Below are positions 28,754 to 46,251 of a stretch of 64,000 nucleotides of DNA, piece after piece. The translations under genes and the position numbers were made by a program. Source of the DNA: Blakeslea trispora (Eukaryota > Mucoromycota > Mucoromycetes > Mucorales > Choanephoraceae); NCBI GenBank assembly GCA_025331445.1, contig JAIWNE010000087.1, forward strand, positions 1-64,000. Reading direction: 5' to 3'. The notes below the pieces were generated by a model, which was not told where the DNA came from, ran no database searches, and saw nothing but the letters and a program-made list of their open reading frames with translations. Within the stretch, counting starts at the first letter, position 1. Each line of letters starts with the position of its first letter.

Positions 28754-29495
28754 ATAGTTTGATACGTGAGAAAAGAAACAAACATTTCAACTATCGTCAT
28801 GCATGGCTATATTTTCAGCGGAGTTGCATAAACCCTAAAAGCGTATATGCCAAAATGGTCATTATTAAATCATCTACTGCTGTAACATTTCTGTTCTAAT
28901 TCAGATCTTTCGAGACTAATCAGATTATTTGCCTTGGATTATTAATGGAGGAAATGGAGCATTGAGATCGTTGTCTAATACATCGAGCTGAAAGAGGGGA
29001 AAGGATAAACAGATTAACTCATACATATCATTGTTGTCGTTATGATGCGAGTTATTGACATGGTTCACCCAAAGTCGAAATGTGGAAACAACACTTTGCT
29101 AGATGCAAGCATTTGTTTCGTATGATTAAGAGAACGCAGTCAGAACAGCGTACCACAAACCCAATTGTATGCTCATGCAATGACTCCAGTCTGTTTTGAT
29201 TTCTTTTGCTCATTTTCAACAAGCAGTTTATTTGTTTTTCCTTTTGTCAGTCTCTTCAGAAGATAATAACGTATATTCTTTTTGGTATTTGCTTTTCTTG
29301 TTTTTGCCTTGTGCAATCATAGACTATCAGCTCGTCCAAAAGCAAGCATTCCATTCTACTAAAAGAAAAAAATCCTCTAGCAAGATTCAATCAAGCCGAC
29401 TCGCAGGAGTTTTTTTCTTTTGTAGAAAGTATAAACTTTATTAAAGAGAGTCATTATACATCACCAAACCCATTTCCTTTTTTAGTAATTTCCAT
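28754..29495. other. Intergenic between FAD oxidoreductase and solo LTR
   Basis: About 740 bp. A telobox-like AAACCCTAA lies at about 28829-28838, roughly 80 bp upstream of the oxidoreductase start codon, and could be a regulatory site. A plus-strand frame near 29196-29444 has no family signature and is not called. Confidence 0.4.
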
Positions 29496-29499
29496 ATCA

Positions 29500-30069
29500 T
29501 GTAAGATTTGAGGGGATTGATTTGTTTTAATTTCAGTAAGAGTAATGTAGATTATTATTACAGCACACTCGTATCAAATAATTCTCGTAAGACTTATAAA
29601 GAGTGACAATTCACGTAGTTTTAGTGAAGAGGCCAGTAAGGACTCAAGGACTTCGTAATAGACTGTTAAAACTTTATAGATTTGGTCTAACTGTCTGAGT
29701 GAAGTAACTTATTTACGATCTGGCGCGGTAAAGTTACAAGAGACAGAAGAAATTGTTATCACTTAAGAACTTGAGGGTTCAAAGATAATCAAGATGTTTT
29801 TAGACGTTTTATTTAGAGGGTCACTCGACTTCAGTTAACGAATATAATTTATATTTCGAAGAGTCGAACAAATAGATACTTAGTTAAAATAACTTCAAGG
29901 AATCGATCAGATAGGTAGAGTTATTAAAGGTATCTCTTTTGATAGTGAAAATAAGGTTTCTAGACAACTTCGGGCAGACAGTTGTTTGGAGAAAGGTCAA
30001 TTTTTAAAATCAAAGGGTAAGATAAAGTTATAAATTTTATATTTTTCGTGGTCACGCTGGGGCGTTACA
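29500..30069. mobile_element. Probable solo LTR of a retrotransposon
   Basis: A 570-bp non-coding stretch begins TGTAAG and ends CGTTACA, giving the TG...CA ends and a 5-bp terminal inversion (TGTAA/TTACA) typical of Ty3- or Ty1-type LTRs. It is flanked by a 4-bp direct repeat ATCA (29496-29499 and 30070-30073), as expected for a target-site duplication. No internal gag-pol sequence or second LTR lies in the window, so it would be a solo LTR. The call rests on the ends and the duplication only, not on homology. Confidence 0.5.
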
Positions 30070-30421
30070 ATCACCACGCCAACGTCCATTTTAAGCATTT
30101 CAGAAAAAAATCACAGCTCATCACCAATTTCAGATCTTATTTTCCTTCCCACAAAGGTGGGCCCAACTAGATATTAGTTGACTACTAATTCAATTATGTG
30201 TATGTTTTCAAAAGCAATAAAAAGTCTAAAAGTAAATCCAGGCAATCCCTAACAAATATTTGAGCATTTCAAGACATTTGGTAGTAGTTTAATGGTGCTT
30301 GGTAGGTCAAAACCAATGATGATGGTAATTTGGATTTTGGAAGGAAAATTAAAATTTTATCTTATTTTTTGTAAACCCACTGTACTAGGAACATAAATCA
30401 AAGAACAAGATTCTAATTTTT
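30070..30421. other. Gap between solo LTR and mariner relic
   Basis: About 350 bp, AT-rich, presumably the left non-coding flank of the Tc1/mariner relic. I looked for a terminal inverted repeat matching 31250-31450 and found none that was convincing. Confidence 0.35.
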
Positions 30422-31248
30422 AAGGGATTTAATTGATGGAGAAGAAGAAGGAAACATCTTAACTTTGGAGCAGCTACGATTAAAACTCATGACAAAGTTT
30501 CCTGAAGAATTTCCTAAAGATAAATCCATCAGCATAACCGCCTTGCACAAGCACATTGATAGCCACCTCATGTTAACATTGAAAAGAAGCTCACCCTTGG
30601 AGATAACCCAAACTACAGAGCAGCTAAAAGCCAGCAGAAGACAGTATGCCGAGGACCTGTCAATTAAAGGCATTAGTGATGCTGCTAATTGTGTTTTTGT
30701 TGACAAACGTTTCTTTAATGCTTGCATGGTTCCAGGTCAAGCTCGATCAAAAAGAGGAAAGAAAGCTCACGTGGTAACCAAAGTGAAAAGAAGCAAGAAC
30801 ATCTCAATCGTTGTTGCCATGAGGTTCACAGAGTGAAGTCACTTCAGTATATGATGATCAATGGGCCCACCAATCGATTCATTCTTGCTGAATTCATGAA
30901 GCAGTTGATTGAGTGACTTGGCAAAGAGTATCAGCAGCCCATGTTTATCATCATGGACAATGCTAGATTTCATCATAGCCAAGAAGTTCAGGAGATTATT
31001 AGCCGCTCAAAACACACATGTCATTTTCTTCTCCCTACTCTCCCATGTTTAATCCAATCGAGTCATGCTTTGCTAAACTCAAGAACTTCGTAAGAAGATC
31101 CCCAAGAGAGGAGAAGGAGATGATGAACAAGGTCATCGAGCAAGCAGAAAGAAGCGTCCGGCCCGAAGATTGTGAAGGGTGGACAAAGCACTGCATTGAA
31201 AATCTAAACAGATGTATTAGAGGAGAAGATGTTACTTTTGATAATTAA
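30422..31248 (+). pseudogene. Tc1/mariner-type transposase relic
   Basis: Remains of a DDE transposase. The catalytic blocks are recognisable: CVFVDKRFFN with a following ARSKRGKKA (first Asp block), FIIMDNARFHHS (second Asp block) and SPYSPMFNPIESCFAKLKNF (third, acidic Glu block). An N-terminal helix-turn-helix-like segment precedes them. The reading frame is broken by a shift near 30815-30830, a TGA at 30914-30916 and another shift near 31015-31030, so no full protein is possible. It ends with a stop at 31248. The three catalytic residues are still present, which suggests moderate age. Confidence 0.8.
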
Positions 31249-31591
31249 TAAAGTTTTGTATTCTTTGTGAAATTCATGTTATTTTTCTCTAGTGGTAGTT
31301 TATTCCTGTATAAAAATACAGAATTGAAGCCCCATAATCTCTCTGCAAACTGGAAGCCCTATCTGTAAACAACACTGGGCAAAAAGAGTATTTAATATTT
31401 AATTTTCAATCTCGTTGTGCTTTTTTACACTCCAAAGCATGAGTCGGTTTTTTTCTCATATACCTCATCAAATTTCAACAGGATTCATCTTTTCGTCCTC
31501 TACTTAGATTCTATCCTATTCGAATTTCTATGGTCTGTACGACTTTGTCTTTTCTTTTTCCTTTTGTGTCTTTTTTTCTAGCTAACTAACC
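31249..31591. other. Gap left of the palindrome
   Basis: About 340 bp between the mariner relic and the first degenerate subterminal repeat unit. It is pyrimidine-rich on the plus strand (31470-31580), with no recognised coding signal. It may belong to the left end of the element that supplied the palindrome arm. Confidence 0.3.
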
Positions 31592-31900
31592 AAGTCTGCC
31601 ATATAAGACTACCATAGTTAATCTTCGAACAACCAAGTCATTATTCGAATCACCCTTCTTTACTTTTAAATAAGTCTGCTTTTTAAGACTATCATCGTTC
31701 TTCGAATAAACAAGTTCTCCAGAACTAATATATTCTTTCTTACAGCCTACAAGATAAACAAGTCTGGTCTTAGGCTACCATAGTTATTTATCGCATTCGT
31801 ATTTACATAGCCAAGTATTTTACTGATTAAACATATCCAGGTATCCTATAAAGCTAAACAAGTCTTGCAATTAAACCATCTTATTGTTCTACTTGTCAAG
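31592..31900 (+). repeat. Degenerate subterminal tandem repeats (left)
   Basis: Three clearly related units begin with AAGTCTG at about 31593, 31672 and 31760, spaced roughly 80-90 bp, each followed by AAGACTAYCATMGTT (the third as AGGCTACCATAGTT) and, in the first two, TTCGAAYAA. A weaker fourth copy is near 31861. Units two to four recur inverted in the right arm; the first does not. Such subterminal repeats are typical transposase-binding regions, but no function is shown. Confidence 0.6.
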
Positions 31901-33933
31901 CTTTTAAGTCGCAACTCATAACTAATAGCCCTAACATATCATAAGATAACCAAGAACGTCTTAGGATACTTTGTTTCTTCTTTGTGCCTTACATTCGCTT
32001 TATCTAAAAAGCACTTTGTACGAATCTTCAATCTTCTTCAAACCTGTGCTACTACTTTACAAAACGAGCAATCATACACTCAACCTGCTGAAAATTCCGA
32101 CGTTTTGATGAGTCTTAGCTATGTACCTCTTTGTTCTCCACATCTGCTGTCTCAAATAAAAACATCACTCGTAAATTGATTTCGAAAAGATTTTTTTACA
32201 GATGAATAAAGTACTCAAGTTGAGCACAAGAGAAAGAAAAAACAGCAAATGCTTTTATTAGTCCAGCTTTCTTTTTTTTTTGATGGCTTCTGGGGAAAGG
32301 ACATCGAACAGTGTCGACAATGACAGGGAGAGAGAATGGAGCACCAGAAACTTGTCAGCTGTATTGTCCTTTTCAAAGCAGAAGGTCTTGTACACATGCA
32401 CAAACTTCATCAAGTTGTTCATGTCATTCAATGACATGTCTATGTCCTTCAAATCAGTTGGGATGCGGAAGTCACAGAAGTGTGTGAGTGTGCACACATT
32501 GTTGCATGCAAGCTTCATTAGGTATGCCTTTGCATTGCCGCCCCAGATCTGAAAACAAACAATGTTTTTGGCATTGGTCTTGAGAAGCATTTCTTTTCCA
32601 TACAAAGCAAGCTTGTACAAATCAAAATTCAACAGGTGCTTGTCATGTATGTTTGAGGGCTTGACCTCACCGTATGCATTAGTAAAGGCATATTCTCCAT
32701 CTTCATATACCAAGCACTTGATATCTGGGCGACACTTTTCTTCTACTTCTTCTAACTCATCAACAACACGATCGGACTGATGGGGGTCGTTGTTCTTCTC
32801 TTGAAGAAGTCGGCCAACAAAAGGTTGTACAAAGGATGCACACAGATCCAACTCACTAGACTTTTTCTTTTGAGGCTTCACTACCTCAGGGGCAACATGC
32901 ATTAAAGCATCAAGTATCTTCTTTTGAGGCCCGTCTTCTTTCTTCTTCATCATTATTACTTCTTCTTGGAATTCTTCTCTGTAGTCATAGCCATTGTTTA
33001 ACAGCTTTTGAGCTGCAGCAGAATATTCAGCATACAACTGCAGTGGAAAGAGAGGCAAGTGGTCAAGAAGCTCCTGACTGCAAGAGTCAACAAGTGCAGA
33101 GTACTCGATTGTATTAAAACAGCTATTGAGCAAAGGGTGCTTGATATCTTTGCTTAAAACCAGAACCCCAGAAAGCGACAACAACACAGCGAGATCATCC
33201 TTCAAGAGCAAGGTACCCTTGAATCTTCTAGCCAACTTGAGTGATTCATCTTGGAATTGCTTGAAATCGGGCAGGATGTCTTTGCTGTCTACAAGCCATT
33301 GATCAGAAGATCGATATGTATCAGTTGTAAAGTCATCAATCTTTATATAGTCAAAGTCTCGCTTGAGACCAGAGAAGGTGGTGGAGGCATCATTTTCAGT
33401 TTTAGACTGAGTGTCTTCTGTTTCCTTGCTTTTTTTGATCTTGATCAGATCGATTATAGCTTTCCACTCTTCAGCATCGGTTTCTAAGTAGCTTTCATCT
33501 TCATACATATCAGGTTTGTGTTGCTTCAAAGCAGAAATCATGGCTTCTTGCCACACGTGTCTTAATTTTTTGTAATTTGTTGTGAAGGAGACAGCAGCAA
33601 TACGTTCTTTTTCGCTTTTCAAGAAGTCAGAGAGCGTTGGATTTTCATTGGATTGGACGTATTTTGAAGCAAGAGAGAGAGGTGAATTGTCCATTCTGAG
33701 ATACTGTTTTTACTAAAGAACAAGTGAAAAAGCGAAGAGAGTATCTATCTATCTATCTGTCTATCTATCTATTATATTGAAAAGTTAACGGCGACGTATG
33801 ACTTTCTTTTGTTTTATTCTATTAAACAATAAAATCCTAATATAGAGATGTATTCAAAAAGTTTCACCCTGAAATTTATCTGTGATTGACAACCATTCTG
33901 CAGGAAATAGACTTGAATGAATCAGGATCTCAT
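31665..33933. repeat. Palindrome, left arm
   Basis: Left 2,269-bp arm, the reverse complement of 33967-36235. It contains, from outside in: subterminal repeats, about 350 bp of non-coding DNA, the minus-strand 478-aa gene, a (TATC)n microsatellite at about 33742-33776 and the 5' flank near the centre. Confidence 0.9.
32258..33694 (-). CDS. PD-(D/E)XK-like protein of unknown function, left copy
   Basis: Intact intronless 478-aa protein, identical to the copy at 34206-35642. The C-terminal half reads like the PD-(D/E)XK nuclease fold: P323-D324, then 18 residues on E343-V-K345 (YGEVKPS), followed by a Leu-rich helix LYKLALYGKEMLL and a hydrophobic strand NIVCFQIWGGNAKAYLM. This P-D...E-x-K spacing is what restriction-endonuclease-like proteins show, but the assignment is by pattern, not by a search. 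The N-terminal half is helical and acidic. The tail EAIKKKRKLD looks like a nuclear localisation signal. Similar RPD...GEVKP proteins are, from memory, common orphan families in Mucorales. No introns and no linked recombinase gene. Confidence 0.8.
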   Translation of the reverse strand: MDNSPLSLASKYVQSNENPTLSDFLKSEKERIAAVSFTTNYKKLRHVWQEAMISALKQHKPDMYEDESYLETDAEEWKAIIDLIKIKKSKETEDTQSKTENDASTTFSGLKRDFDYIKIDDFTTDTYRSSDQWLVDSKDILPDFKQFQDESLKLARRFKGTLLLKDDLAVLLSLSGVLVLSKDIKHPLLNSCFNTIEYSALVDSCSQELLDHLPLFPLQLYAEYSAAAQKLLNNGYDYREEFQEEVIMMKKKEDGPQKKILDALMHVAPEVVKPQKKKSSELDLCASFVQPFVGRLLQEKNNDPHQSDRVVDELEEVEEKCRPDIKCLVYEDGEYAFTNAYGEVKPSNIHDKHLLNFDLYKLALYGKEMLLKTNAKNIVCFQIWGGNAKAYLMKLACNNVCTLTHFCDFRIPTDLKDIDMSLNDMNNLMKFVHVYKTFCFEKDNTADKFLVLHSLSLSLSTLFDVLSPEAIKKKRKLD

Positions 33934-33966
33934 AGTATGCTTGGGAAGAAAAAGAGCTTTTTAATG
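33934..33966. other. Palindrome spacer (33 bp)
   Basis: The only unpaired segment at the centre of the inverted repeat. It is AT-rich and does not resemble a known library adapter sequence. The two genes start 240 bp to either side, so this is also the centre of a perfectly symmetrical divergent promoter region. Confidence 0.85.
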
Positions 33967-36235
33967 ATGAGACCCTGATTCATTCAAGTCTATTTCCTGC
34001 AGAATGGTTGTCAATCACAGATAAATTTCAGGGTGAAACTTTTTGAATACATCTCTATATTAGGATTTTATTGTTTAATAGAATAAAACAAAAGAAAGTC
34101 ATACGTCGCCGTTAACTTTTCAATATAATAGATAGATAGACAGATAGATAGATAGATACTCTCTTCGCTTTTTCACTTGTTCTTTAGTAAAAACAGTATC
34201 TCAGAATGGACAATTCACCTCTCTCTCTTGCTTCAAAATACGTCCAATCCAATGAAAATCCAACGCTCTCTGACTTCTTGAAAAGCGAAAAAGAACGTAT
34301 TGCTGCTGTCTCCTTCACAACAAATTACAAAAAATTAAGACACGTGTGGCAAGAAGCCATGATTTCTGCTTTGAAGCAACACAAACCTGATATGTATGAA
34401 GATGAAAGCTACTTAGAAACCGATGCTGAAGAGTGGAAAGCTATAATCGATCTGATCAAGATCAAAAAAAGCAAGGAAACAGAAGACACTCAGTCTAAAA
34501 CTGAAAATGATGCCTCCACCACCTTCTCTGGTCTCAAGCGAGACTTTGACTATATAAAGATTGATGACTTTACAACTGATACATATCGATCTTCTGATCA
34601 ATGGCTTGTAGACAGCAAAGACATCCTGCCCGATTTCAAGCAATTCCAAGATGAATCACTCAAGTTGGCTAGAAGATTCAAGGGTACCTTGCTCTTGAAG
34701 GATGATCTCGCTGTGTTGTTGTCGCTTTCTGGGGTTCTGGTTTTAAGCAAAGATATCAAGCACCCTTTGCTCAATAGCTGTTTTAATACAATCGAGTACT
34801 CTGCACTTGTTGACTCTTGCAGTCAGGAGCTTCTTGACCACTTGCCTCTCTTTCCACTGCAGTTGTATGCTGAATATTCTGCTGCAGCTCAAAAGCTGTT
34901 AAACAATGGCTATGACTACAGAGAAGAATTCCAAGAAGAAGTAATAATGATGAAGAAGAAAGAAGACGGGCCTCAAAAGAAGATACTTGATGCTTTAATG
35001 CATGTTGCCCCTGAGGTAGTGAAGCCTCAAAAGAAAAAGTCTAGTGAGTTGGATCTGTGTGCATCCTTTGTACAACCTTTTGTTGGCCGACTTCTTCAAG
35101 AGAAGAACAACGACCCCCATCAGTCCGATCGTGTTGTTGATGAGTTAGAAGAAGTAGAAGAAAAGTGTCGCCCAGATATCAAGTGCTTGGTATATGAAGA
35201 TGGAGAATATGCCTTTACTAATGCATACGGTGAGGTCAAGCCCTCAAACATACATGACAAGCACCTGTTGAATTTTGATTTGTACAAGCTTGCTTTGTAT
35301 GGAAAAGAAATGCTTCTCAAGACCAATGCCAAAAACATTGTTTGTTTTCAGATCTGGGGCGGCAATGCAAAGGCATACCTAATGAAGCTTGCATGCAACA
35401 ATGTGTGCACACTCACACACTTCTGTGACTTCCGCATCCCAACTGATTTGAAGGACATAGACATGTCATTGAATGACATGAACAACTTGATGAAGTTTGT
35501 GCATGTGTACAAGACCTTCTGCTTTGAAAAGGACAATACAGCTGACAAGTTTCTGGTGCTCCATTCTCTCTCCCTGTCATTGTCGACACTGTTCGATGTC
35601 CTTTCCCCAGAAGCCATCAAAAAAAAAAGAAAGCTGGACTAATAAAAGCATTTGCTGTTTTTTCTTTCTCTTGTGCTCAACTTGAGTACTTTATTCATCT
35701 GTAAAAAAATCTTTTCGAAATCAATTTACGAGTGATGTTTTTATTTGAGACAGCAGATGTGGAGAACAAAGAGGTACATAGCTAAGACTCATCAAAACGT
35801 CGGAATTTTCAGCAGGTTGAGTGTATGATTGCTCGTTTTGTAAAGTAGTAGCACAGGTTTGAAGAAGATTGAAGATTCGTACAAAGTGCTTTTTAGATAA
35901 AGCGAATGTAAGGCACAAAGAAGAAACAAAGTATCCTAAGACGTTCTTGGTTATCTTATGATATGTTAGGGCTATTAGTTATGAGTTGCGACTTAAAAGC
36001 TTGACAAGTAGAACAATAAGATGGTTTAATTGCAAGACTTGTTTAGCTTTATAGGATACCTGGATATGTTTAATCAGTAAAATACTTGGCTATGTAAATA
36101 CGAATGCGATAAATAACTATGGTAGCCTAAGACCAGACTTGTTTATCTTGTAGGCTGTAAGAAAGAATATATTAGTTCTGGAGAACTTGTTTATTCGAAG
36201 AACGATGATAGTCTTAAAAAGCAGACTTATTTAAA
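33967..36235. repeat. Palindrome, right arm
   Basis: Right 2,269-bp arm, the reverse complement of 31665-33933. It contains the (GATA)n microsatellite at about 34124-34158, the plus-strand gene, its 3' flank and two to three inverted subterminal repeat units (about 36000-36230). It stops inside the repeat array, one unit short of the left side. Confidence 0.9.
34206..35642 (+). CDS. PD-(D/E)XK-like protein of unknown function, right copy
   Basis: Second, identical 478-codon copy, head-to-head with the left one, with 511 bp between the two start codons. Because the flanks are also duplicated, both copies have the same promoter, 3' end and presumably expression. Keeping two identical intact frames implies either a very recent duplication or gene conversion between the arms. 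Sequence features are those of the left copy: helical acidic N-terminus, D324 and E343/K345 motif, basic C-terminal tail KKKRKLD. If the fold assignment is right, the protein would be a metal-dependent nuclease or a degenerate nuclease acting in the nucleus; this is inference. Confidence 0.8.
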   Translation: MDNSPLSLASKYVQSNENPTLSDFLKSEKERIAAVSFTTNYKKLRHVWQEAMISALKQHKPDMYEDESYLETDAEEWKAIIDLIKIKKSKETEDTQSKTENDASTTFSGLKRDFDYIKIDDFTTDTYRSSDQWLVDSKDILPDFKQFQDESLKLARRFKGTLLLKDDLAVLLSLSGVLVLSKDIKHPLLNSCFNTIEYSALVDSCSQELLDHLPLFPLQLYAEYSAAAQKLLNNGYDYREEFQEEVIMMKKKEDGPQKKILDALMHVAPEVVKPQKKKSSELDLCASFVQPFVGRLLQEKNNDPHQSDRVVDELEEVEEKCRPDIKCLVYEDGEYAFTNAYGEVKPSNIHDKHLLNFDLYKLALYGKEMLLKTNAKNIVCFQIWGGNAKAYLMKLACNNVCTLTHFCDFRIPTDLKDIDMSLNDMNNLMKFVHVYKTFCFEKDNTADKFLVLHSLSLSLSTLFDVLSPEAIKKKRKLD

Positions 36236-36476
36236 GGGTATGTCTACTAAAATCATGACAAATTTTGAAACATAACAGTAATTGCACATACACACACTAT
36301 GGTACGGAAAAAAAAGAGCTTTTCTTTCTATTTGACAACTTGGATAGGATAGTTAGTTGCCATGGTGATGAATTTTGATTTTGATTTTGCGGAGTAGCAC
36401 CATCTGTCTATTTTTTCTTTTTTCTGTCTGTGTACCAAGACTCTGCCCCCTTTTTTTTTCTTTTTTTCAAGAAAAT

Positions 36477-37276
36477 ATGCAACTCTTTAATAGTCACTTA
36501 GTGATCGGCTTACTTGCTATCAGCCTAAACTATGTTGCCACATTCAAACTACCTACTGCTTCCTTATTAAAAGACCCAGTTCAAGCACTCTCAACCACTG
36601 TGCCTGTTTTGTTTGTTGGCCATGTCTTGTTGATCAGTCTTTCCCGGCTATTTCAAGGCAATCTACAGTCATCTGTTGCAAGTATTCAATTTACCATGCT
36701 GGACTCAAGTTTTGTTTAATTGTTTTATATATCTATAGAAACCTATGGGGTATGGTGTTGTGTTGACTCTTTTGACAACAGGTCTGTTATATGTCTTGAC
36801 AGTTTTGTTTGGTGCACCTTTAATAGAGTAAAGTACATGAATCGTCTATTAAAGTGTTGTAACATGAACCATTTCTTTTGTGTAGAAAGTTTCCAAACAC
36901 CTTCTTGTTTGCCGCTTATTTATCCATCTTGACTGTGATGCCCTGTTTCCAGACGTTAAGAGAGAATGTGATGATGAAAGTGTTTTTACAACATAGGTAA
37001 AAGAAAAAAATTGAGCCATTTGATTTTCCCTCCCTAAAATGTATCTATGTTAGCCCTACCACCACATCTGAAATCTATGCTTATGTTCAAGTGATCTGTG
37101 CTCTTTCTGGTGCTTGGATAGGTGCAATTGTACTACCTTTGGATTGGGATAGAGAGTGGCAAGCTTGGCCTATCTCCTGCATCATTTCTACTTATGTAGG
37201 TCATGCAGTAGGTGTAATTGCAGCTTTTGTTTGGTCTTCTTTAAAGTCTTTATTTGGCAAGAAGAAGAGCGAATAA
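36477..37276 (+). CDS. GPI11: GPI-anchor assembly protein Gpi11/PIG-F
   Basis: Predicted 206-aa ER membrane protein. Exons 36477-36674, 36739-36827, 36886-36996 and 37054-37276 join in phase. PIG-F/Gpi11 stabilises the ethanolamine-phosphate transferases (Gpi7/Gpi13) that add phosphoethanolamine to GPI precursors. The signature is near the C-terminus: SGAWIGAIVLPLDWDREWQAWPIS, followed by a last hydrophobic helix and a KKK tail that could serve ER retention. About six hydrophobic segments; length close to yeast Gpi11 (219 aa). The first intron uses an unusual GTTGCA donor, chosen because it alone keeps frame into KPMGYGVVLTLL. The gene starts about 240 bp from the right palindrome border. Confidence 0.88.
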
Positions 37277-37509
37277 AATATGTATAAAAGAGGAAGAGGG
37301 AGAGAGAGGAAAATCTATATGTAATATGCTTTAAATAGATTAAAAGAAAAAAGAGAGAGTCAGCAAATAATAATAAGAAAGAGAGATGTACAAGTGAAAG
37401 CAGTATGGTTGAGTATAGAAGATACATTCTCTCTCAAGAAGAGAAAATGTGACCCATCAAAGTGTGTTTGTATGTGCAAATGAGCGGATATGTAAATGAA
37501 AAAGAGTAA

Positions 37510-39421
37510 TTAACTGCCATAAATATCATTGGCATGTTCCTCATAAATAGATGTCTTTGGCATGGTCATATTCTTATCCTTAAATATGCCACCCAATGCA
37601 CCGATCCATGTCTTTCGCTTTTCCATTGCATATAACGTGTTTTCGGATAAGGTAGCTTTGGGTCCATTGGTCTTGCGCTTTTTTGATTTTTGAGGACGCT
37701 ATAAGAGAAAAAGTTAACAAAAAAAATCAAACAAAAAACTACAATTCGACTTACAAATCGCTTGATGTACCCTTGTTCTACTTGACTATCTAATGTATCC
37801 AAGACTTGACGGTATTGTTCATACTGCAATTGACATTCAACCACTTCCAGTAATCTCTTTTTGCGATACTCATTCATCTTGACCTGCTCCTTAAATTCAC
37901 GACCCAAGGTACGAAGTTCTGCACAAATCTCATCATCTTCTCGAGCATTCCAATCAGCCTAATATCAAAAAAAAAAAAAAAATCAGCTTTGATCCCCTTT
38001 GAATTCATCTAATCAACATTACATCGTCATCATTAAACAAACCAGCATATTGAAGTTCTCTTTTCAACCTCTCCTCAAAACCAACAATCTCTTCAGGTGG
38101 TTCCGATAATAACATAGCCTTACTATTGTACCTTTTATACTCTGTCGTATGGTTTTCCATTGCATTGTCTTCTTCCAGATCACTTTCATCCCCATGAAGT
38201 GATTCTTCTGTAATCAAGTCCTCTGCCACTAAACTTGAAATCAATCGTTCCGTAAGCGTACCACATCCAAGGTCATCGTACAGCAAATGCTGGTCTGTCA
38301 GTGCTTGCTGAGATTGCAAATATTTCAATTTATGCTGTTGTAGCTGAGGCTGTAACAATTCAACCTCTTGCATCGTCTGTTGATCTTCCTCGGCCCATTT
38401 CTCAAGATAGTGTTGCCCTAAGGGTGGTATCAAGTAAGGCTTGCCTTGGTCGGATTTTTGCAACAGTATCTGTCGATCTTCCTCGGTCAAGTTGCGGAAA
38501 TAAGGTTCCAATGCTGTCCAGAAAGTCGTGATTTGAACTTGATCCTTGGGCTTCACGCGGACGAAATCAATGTCCTCGGTCTCTGATGAGGATGGGAGTT
38601 GTTGTGATCGAGCTGTTGATTTCTTGGCTTTTTTCAGGTCATGGTTTAGCTTGGGTGGTTTTGAGGTTGGTGGTGATTCACTTCGAGAGACAAGGGATGG
38701 CATTCCCTCTAATTTCTTTAATTTGACCAGATGAGGAGACTCACTTCGACGAGTGATGGCTATTGAAAGTCGGATTTAATTGTCTGATTTGAAACAAGGC
38801 AGAGACTTACCATCATCTGTACTTTCTCGTCTTCTCTTCTTTTTGATCTGCTCTAGTGCCCTATTTGTTCTCTTGTAAGTCTGAATTGCATTTATCAATC
38901 ATAACTGTTCATTTACGCTTGTCGACTTAATTCATTCCTCGATAGACTGTTATTCTGAAGTGTATCATCATCTATCACACTCTGGGAGGTTAACCATCTC
39001 TTTGAAATAACGATAGAATAGACACTTTTTTTTTACCCAATTCTTGTTTGATTCTCATTCTTTCAATCATGGCGTTGACGCTTTTGCCTGAAGTGGGCTC
39101 TATTGTATTTAAACTGTCAAGATAAAAGAAAGTCGAAATAGTTTGTTTTGTAGGGAAGGAAGCGAGATTCTTCTTACCTAACATCTCACGACTCTTGTGA
39201 TCAATCGTATTCAAGCCATACTTTAGATCTTTTGTTCGTCTTTCAGCTGAAGGAAGTAAAGATTCCAAGTCTGCTTTTATGCTTAAAAGGTCATTGGCTT
39301 CAGGAATGGCTTCTTGATGTTGACCGTTACTGTGGAGCAGATTGTACCGATGTTGGTCAATAATAGAACTGGTTGAAGGTGATAAAGTCTTTGGTAAGTC
39401 ATATCTACGCGCTGCTTCCAT
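37510..39421 (-). CDS. NGG1: SAGA/ADA histone-acetyltransferase module subunit Ada3 (Ngg1)
   Basis: Predicted 516-539-aa nuclear adaptor that links Gcn5-Ada2 to SAGA and ADA complexes. Minus-strand exons: 39037-39421 (possibly with a 69-nt intron at 39114-39182 that is frame-neutral), 38917-38971, 38811-38860, 38023-38759, 37755-37958 and 37510-37698. The C-terminal Ada3 domain is clear: DWNAREDDEICAELRTLG, KMNEYRKKRLLEV and LDTLDSQVEQGYIKR, followed by a Lys-rich KKRKTNGPKA and a conserved end. Upstream are SGKSVNAMIERM, an ALEQIKKKRRR block and a TFWTALEPYFRNL region typical of fungal Ngg1. Length is shorter than yeast Ngg1 (702 aa). The 39114-39182 segment looks like an intron but has no stop, so two isoforms are possible. 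Confidence 0.9.

Positions 39422-46161: not shown

Positions 46162-46251
<90 letters not shown>

Follow-up and report, generated by a model that had tools for sequence, protein, structure and literature searches.

A 4.57-kb palindrome in the genome of Blakeslea trispora, in which the same 478-aa gene stands twice, probably arose as an inverted duplication seeded by a transposon hairpin, and three more palindromes of this gene family are best accounted for by the same process acting at inverted ends that belong to other elements. The palindrome lies in a window of 64,000 nucleotides (the whole stretch analysed, bases 1–64000 of contig C272), which was compared with the whole genome, 285 contigs totalling 37,198,342 bases. 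It has a MITE at its centre, one truncated arm, a unique flank beyond that arm, and arms that are identical outside the MITE. That the inverted ends of transposons start such duplications is suggested by the other cases, because most of the similar structures examined in this genome are also centred on transposons.

The inverted repeat at 31665–36235 is confirmed in the sequence by checking the pairing of position x with 67900-x at every base. The initial annotation had described this pairing, with arms of 2,269 bp, a 33-bp spacer, a single mismatch at 33927/33973 and two intact, identical genes, all of which was reproduced base by base. It had made no mention of the dispersed hairpin MITE exactly at the palindrome centre. 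The components are as follows.

31665–33933, minus strand: left arm, the inner part of a longer dispersed repeat unit (base-by-base pairing and repeat search).
33967–36235, plus strand: right arm, a truncated inverted copy of the left arm (base-by-base pairing and repeat search).
33934–33966, no strand: spacer of 33 nt, the loop of the central MITE, aligning with the loops of seven other MITE copies.
33927 against 33973, no strand: the sole arm mismatch, A against C, inside the MITE stem.
32258–33694, minus strand: left copy of the 478-aa gene, an intact ORF.
34206–35642, plus strand: right copy of the 478-aa gene, an intact ORF identical to the left copy, with equal search scores.
33842–34058, no strand: central hairpin MITE of 217 bp with 92-bp stems and a loop of ~33 nt; its axis at 33950 is also the palindrome axis.

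An inverted-repeat search returned arms of 2269 nt each, separated by 33 nt, with the two genes head to head. Mispairs across 31665–36235 are confined to the spacer and the pair 33927/33973, and arm pairing ends from 31664/36236 outward. Since the spacer and the mismatch both lie inside the MITE, the 2177 bp of arm outside it contain 0 differences. The other inverted pairs within 31–37 kb span at most 27 nt (one is a TATC microsatellite belonging to these arms, the rest measure 20–26 nt at 73–82%), and the self-comparison that had been proposed as a check, run across all 64 kb with an E limit of 1e-8, found this palindrome as the only inverted repeat; the structure is therefore far above chance expectation. 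A short tandem repeat at 46164–46246 gave self-matches 6 bases apart and recurs as a longer array at C220 (L031 4682–4820). Neighbouring genes in the window are eukaryotic and fungal-like, encoding Sec2p, an SPB4-type helicase, a GATA finger and an ankyrin/TIG protein.

The central element exists independently of the palindrome, being found in at least 40 places (40 of 161 candidates scored), and its copies elsewhere terminate within about 1 base of the 33842/34058 limits. Such dispersed short copies with terminal inverted repeats are those of a MITE, and the element resembles TA-type MITEs in its size (~217 bp), its 92-bp inverted repeats, a length too short for a transposase and its at least 40 dispersed places. 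Some copies have TAGAG...CTCTA ends, and the symmetric flanks in the window would hide any TA duplication. Eight copies were aligned, six of them compared over 92 bp, with stem identities of 91 (window), 91 (C37), 84 (C218), 87 (C8), 90 (C210b) and 87 (the second C8 copy); stems of the remaining two matched at 90/93 (C210a) and, in a truncated copy on C12, 74/83. The near-perfect stem in the window was considered as a sign of copying and dropped, as other stems reach 91/92, 90/92 and 90/93.

The two arms are unequal in their relation to the rest of the genome, as is apparent when the gene unit is traced to its other copies, the nearest of which (C272b) lies at 129.8 kb of the same contig.

30359–34078, minus strand: parent repeat unit, common to C272b (to 33848, 99%), C218 (30382 to 33750, 97%) and C37 (to 34078, 98%, with an insertion).
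36235–36236, no strand: point where the truncated right arm meets single-copy DNA (flank comparison and genome search).
30382–31258, no strand: Tc1-like remnant inside the parent unit and outside the palindrome, present also in C254, C216, C36 and C27 at 90–92% identity.

Across the left border, C272b and C37 carry the same 60 bases as the window and C218 has one difference, and the left arm runs on as repeat to at least 30382; on the other side, 36236–38300 has one match in the genome, itself. Thus, a full left copy stands opposite a truncated inverted right copy, because the left border falls inside a shared repeat and the right arm ends in single-copy DNA. C272b, C218 and C37, the three remaining close copies of the gene unit, all lack a long inverted partner, and the palindrome is not itself an element; the idea that both its borders are element ends was abandoned, the left flank being common to other copies. 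The Tc1-like remnant has a weak DDE_3 match (E 0.037), and its C254 copy overlaps a strong one. Left of the parent unit lie dispersed repeats at about 30139–30386 and at 29473–30070, each matching several other contigs. The C37 copy of the gene (C37:11279-12868) is broken by an insertion of ~150 bp.

These features are those expected of a fold-back event. A double-strand break would have occurred on the side of the MITE that faces a conserved upstream block, U, followed by resection; the 92-bp inverted repeats would then have folded the 3' strand back onto itself, a polymerase would have extended it by ~2.2 kb copied from the gene side, and its end would then have been joined to the other side of the break at 36236. 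In line with this expectation, the window palindrome has an independently existing inverted repeat at the centre (a feature of four of the five close-spaced palindromes of the family, this one included, C232 being the exception), a spacer that corresponds to the loop of the repeat, and one arm continuous with the parent while the other ends at a new junction. Block U adjoins the site in C272b and C12 and has no match in the window; the second junction is unexplained because no ancestral right-flank sequence was found in this genome.

Related palindromes were sought through the gene family. Searching the genome with the protein returned 39 matches, from which 36 rows were used after leaving out three second fragments of the same copies. 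Among them are six inverted pairs of identical score, the members of each pair lying on the same contig, and a near-identical pair on C220; direct pairs comprise one that is near-identical and one whose members are unlike. Including the one in the window, five close-spaced palindromes were chosen in this way, and counts among them describe a family sample rather than a genome-wide rate. The four remote ones are listed here.

C242: 1585-bp arms, genes head to head, 1 substitution at alignment column 14 and 2 adjacent gap columns.
C113: 1901-bp arms, head to head, 0 substitutions and 1 gap.
C232: 2139-bp arms, head to head, 1 substitution at column 2128/2139, in a microsatellite, and 1 gap.
C57: arms of at least 4844 bp, the right end lying beyond the stretch compared (C57:116501-130500), tail to tail, 0 substitutions and 8 gaps.

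Arms of these four thus hold two substitutions in total, both at edges. Where gaps were viewed in their sequence context (C113, C232 and C57), each is a single base within a short one-base run.

In four of the five close-spaced palindromes (the window, C242, C113 and C57) a TIR element shares its axis with the palindrome, to within about one base. Dispersed copies of the C242 central element span query positions 104–765 (exactly so in C215, C238 and C253), equivalent to 5003–5664 of L025, and the element axis and palindrome axis coincide at 5333.5. The limits of the dispersed element at C113 are query 132/135 and 1180/1183, and both axes lie at 4956.5 (L026). In both C242 and C113 the arms stop, on the inner side, exactly where terminal inverted repeats of ~37 bp have their own inner ends. 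The centre of C113 retains a Tc3/Tc1-type transposase remnant (HTH_Tnp_Tc3_2, E 1.1e-11), and that of C242, which we call Tc1-like from its TACAGTG ends, has weak helix-turn-helix matches only (best E 0.01). In C57 the inner arm ends lie in both stems of a second MITE, of which C37 has a complete copy that follows the first MITE and measures 820 bp with 369-bp stems; by alignment to that copy its axis is at about 411.5, against 411 for the palindrome, and nested at the edge of its loop are ~3.5 kb that carry a MULE transposase.

Several observations weigh against the fold-back reading. At C232 no dispersed element is symmetric about the centre, and the inner ends are inverted CACATA/TATGTG microsatellites. 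Only C57, among the five, has its genes tail to tail, and the family match is weak both there (65 aligned residues) and in C232 (159). In C37 a short inverted extension lies beside the MITE, and no ancestral sequence accounts for the second junction in the window. For two inverted pairs of the Tc1 family, C216 and C168, inspection of the inner ends themselves, rather than a search for dispersed copies of the centres, revealed no TIR element. The C216 pair (62001–70000) has 0 substitutions in its first 1740 bp and 60 in the rest, in and beside a minisatellite of ~21-bp units, and its outer borders read TACAGTG, which we take to be a Tc1-like end; the arms of C168 differ by 4 substitutions in 1762.

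Inverted pairs also occur outside the 478-aa family, since DDE_3 has five of them, and three direct pairs, among the matches listed of 167, as counted by eye. MULE matches gave 0 inverted and 2 direct pairs of 148 (by eye). In two host families, kinases (150) and mitochondrial carriers (153), no identical-score pair within 20 kb on one contig was seen by eye among the matches listed. On C270 (70511–87172) a family gene at 75435–76460 sits between opposed Tc1-type transposase matches of identical score, ~16 kb apart.

The order of events bears on an alternative in which the palindrome came first, arising without a spacer by some other route, after which TA-targeting elements entered its exact axis, perhaps drawn to a cruciform tip, and stabilised it. 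Tc1-type elements may favour palindromic targets. Once the central element is removed, the flanks in the window and in C242 would meet without a spacer and with TA at the axis (the ends in C113 are less certain), and the C37 MITE likewise has an inverted extension beside it: ~19 bp of gene-side sequence is inverted beyond the MITE, before the second MITE starts, which could be a trace of an older palindrome or an inverted target site. However, this route requires exact-axis insertion by different elements in four independent palindromes, and C12 and C272b, neither of which has a long palindrome, carry the MITE or its end directly beside U. A truncated MITE is joined to U in C12; C272b reads U, then TCTCTATA (the last eight bases of the MITE end), then the gene. 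The MITE is therefore apparently older than the window palindrome, and these junctions favour an order in which the MITE would have come first and the palindrome second, the eight bases in C272b being modest evidence. Insertion into a ready-made palindrome is accordingly held to be rather unlikely.

Kilobase palindromes are usually short-lived, and the initial annotation had named recent origin, active arm-to-arm gene conversion or a special element type as ways to account for the persistence of this one. Recent origin gains support from comparison with C272b, which is the nearest relative of the window copy, 0.7% away, and is not palindromic. With C37 and C218 as outgroups for polarity (two further sites, 32227 and 32263, being ambiguous), the window arm is seen to have gained 8 substitutions since the C272b split, all 8 in both arms and 0 specific to one arm, and the unduplicated left flank (1283 bp) acquired 4 substitutions and one 1-base indel on the same lineage. 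Zero arm-specific changes at the rate of this lineage would place the duplication within about the last 19% of the lineage since that split (a 95% Poisson bound that assumes no conversion), though conversion would give the same pattern.

Conversion thus stays compatible with the data, and the alternative that these are old palindromes kept identical by exchange between arms, rather than recent events, draws on several of them. All five close-spaced palindromes are free of substitutions except for the MITE mismatch in the window and the edge sites in C242 and C232, and in C168 none of the 4 substitutions is more than 80 bp from an arm end. Wide-spaced inverted pairs diverge more, by 6 substitutions in 1350 for C210 and by 71 in 2353 for C220, where they are clustered: the C220 pair (348–364 kb) is a mosaic with 5 substitutions in columns 0–820, 66 in 829–1495 and 0 in 1496–2353, and its 666-bp stretch with 66 of the 71 is suggestive of what partial gene conversion may leave behind. 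Active maintenance has been inferred for inverted repeats of C. elegans (PMC1803023). On the other hand, fast loss of older palindromes would look alike, and the palindrome in the window need not be old because its nearest relative lacks one. Great age with conversion alone is decidedly unlikely, and the best reading is that the arms are identical from a recent event, from mutual conversion, or from both.

It is also conceivable that snap-back chimeras primed at inverted repeats were assembled as if real. Artificial palindromes are known from long reads after whole-genome amplification (PMC6218980), and away from the edges the arm differences in C113, C232 and C57 are single-base run indels, as would come from sequencing error. 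Against this, both outer flanks in the window are unique, which requires a second false join, the right flank matching only itself; within C113 and within C232 the two outer flanks also differ from one another; and the right arm stops within the repeat unit instead of continuing into an inverted left flank. An assembly artefact is unlikely, since a right arm that breaks off within a repeat, between two unique and dissimilar flanks, is not what simple snap-back reads produce, and it is an explanation we give little credence. The special element type, a DNA transposon with 2.3-kb terminal inverted repeats, is very improbable and was rejected: it would fit the identical long inverted arms around a short centre and the TACAGTG at the C216 outer borders, but visual inspection of the outer borders in the window, C113 and C232 revealed no target-site duplication (C242 is ambiguous in AT-rich sequence, and C57 was seen at its left end alone), the left border lies within a longer repeat, and a search of the same genome for copies with the same borders, as had been proposed, found no second locus.

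The fold-back duplication proposed here has precedents, and transposon-centred palindromes are a variant of an already known rearrangement. In E. coli an interrupted 246-bp palindrome yields inverted duplications centred on itself (PMC3315005), breaks near natural inverted repeats in yeast lead to inverted duplications in cells deficient in Sae2 or Mre11 (PMC10622511), and human inverted duplications have a spacer bounded by short inverted sequences (PMC3907307). Fold-back duplication of this kind is expected to depend on a double-strand break and on lowered activity of an Mre11-type hairpin nuclease. The shared features are a central short inverted repeat, a loop-sized spacer and inverted arms, and the material of the cited work is repair-deficient cells and patients, with large or dicentric products. 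The present cases differ in being natural, in their arms of 1.6 to more than 4.8 kb, in their interstitial position between unique flanks, in the occurrence of several in one family, and in the transposon end as seed. Among the titles and abstract openings returned by a literature search, no transposon-centred palindromes were described for Mucorales.

Mammalian Y palindromes likewise have near-identical arms with the same gene in opposite orientation. They are mentioned in PMC5490193, together with palindromic gene blocks in animals such as Folsomia candida. Near-identical arms and opposed copies of the same gene are common to the Y palindromes, the inverted gene pairs of Caenorhabditis (PMC1803023) and the structure in the window, for which, in contrast, recent origin suffices and which is known here from one genome. 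Mu killer of maize, a natural partial inverted duplication of a repeated gene and its terminal inverted repeats for which a long hairpin RNA has been proposed (PMC3440606), is similar as a partial inverted duplication with terminal inverted repeats, and differs in that no transposase is known to correspond to the gene in the window.

Among named relatives of the 478-aa protein, one in Gilbertella persicaria comes closest (74%), and a remote one is in Rhizopus arrhizus; like the fungal character of the neighbouring genes, this points to a Mucorales-like genome. Pfam gave no match for any of nine family members, even at E 10, PDB searches with the 478-aa protein gave none of note, and an AlphaFold2 model from five sequences was unusable (pLDDT 33). 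The family has conserved RPD and GEVKP stretches, a motif (RPD...GEVK) that to our eye recalls PD-(D/E)XK nucleases; no profile or PDB match supports such a fold, and the motif resemblance stands by itself. Values of dN/dS among the intact copies are 0.30 for the window against C272b and 0.52–0.55 otherwise, with 0.52 for the window against C218 (C37, with its interrupted reading frame, was left out), which suggests that the gene may be under mild constraint.

Taken together, these observations allow a broader and more tentative picture, which we regard as possible but doubtful as a whole. Within one gene family, transposons with inverted ends would repeatedly have provided the axis, exact to the base, about which palindromic duplication took place, arm identity being preserved by conversion or fast turnover; insertion into the loop, such as that of the MULE in C57, would lengthen the spacer and stabilise the palindrome, and long hairpin RNAs from read-through could silence dispersed copies of the family via RNA interference. 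If the proposed origin is true, MITE and Tc1-like ends drive gene duplication by fold-back in a natural genome, a process that in the cited papers comes mostly from repair mutants and disease, and the several exact natural palindromes of this family would be ready substrates for studying how such structures form, how they are stabilised and how the identity of their arms is kept.
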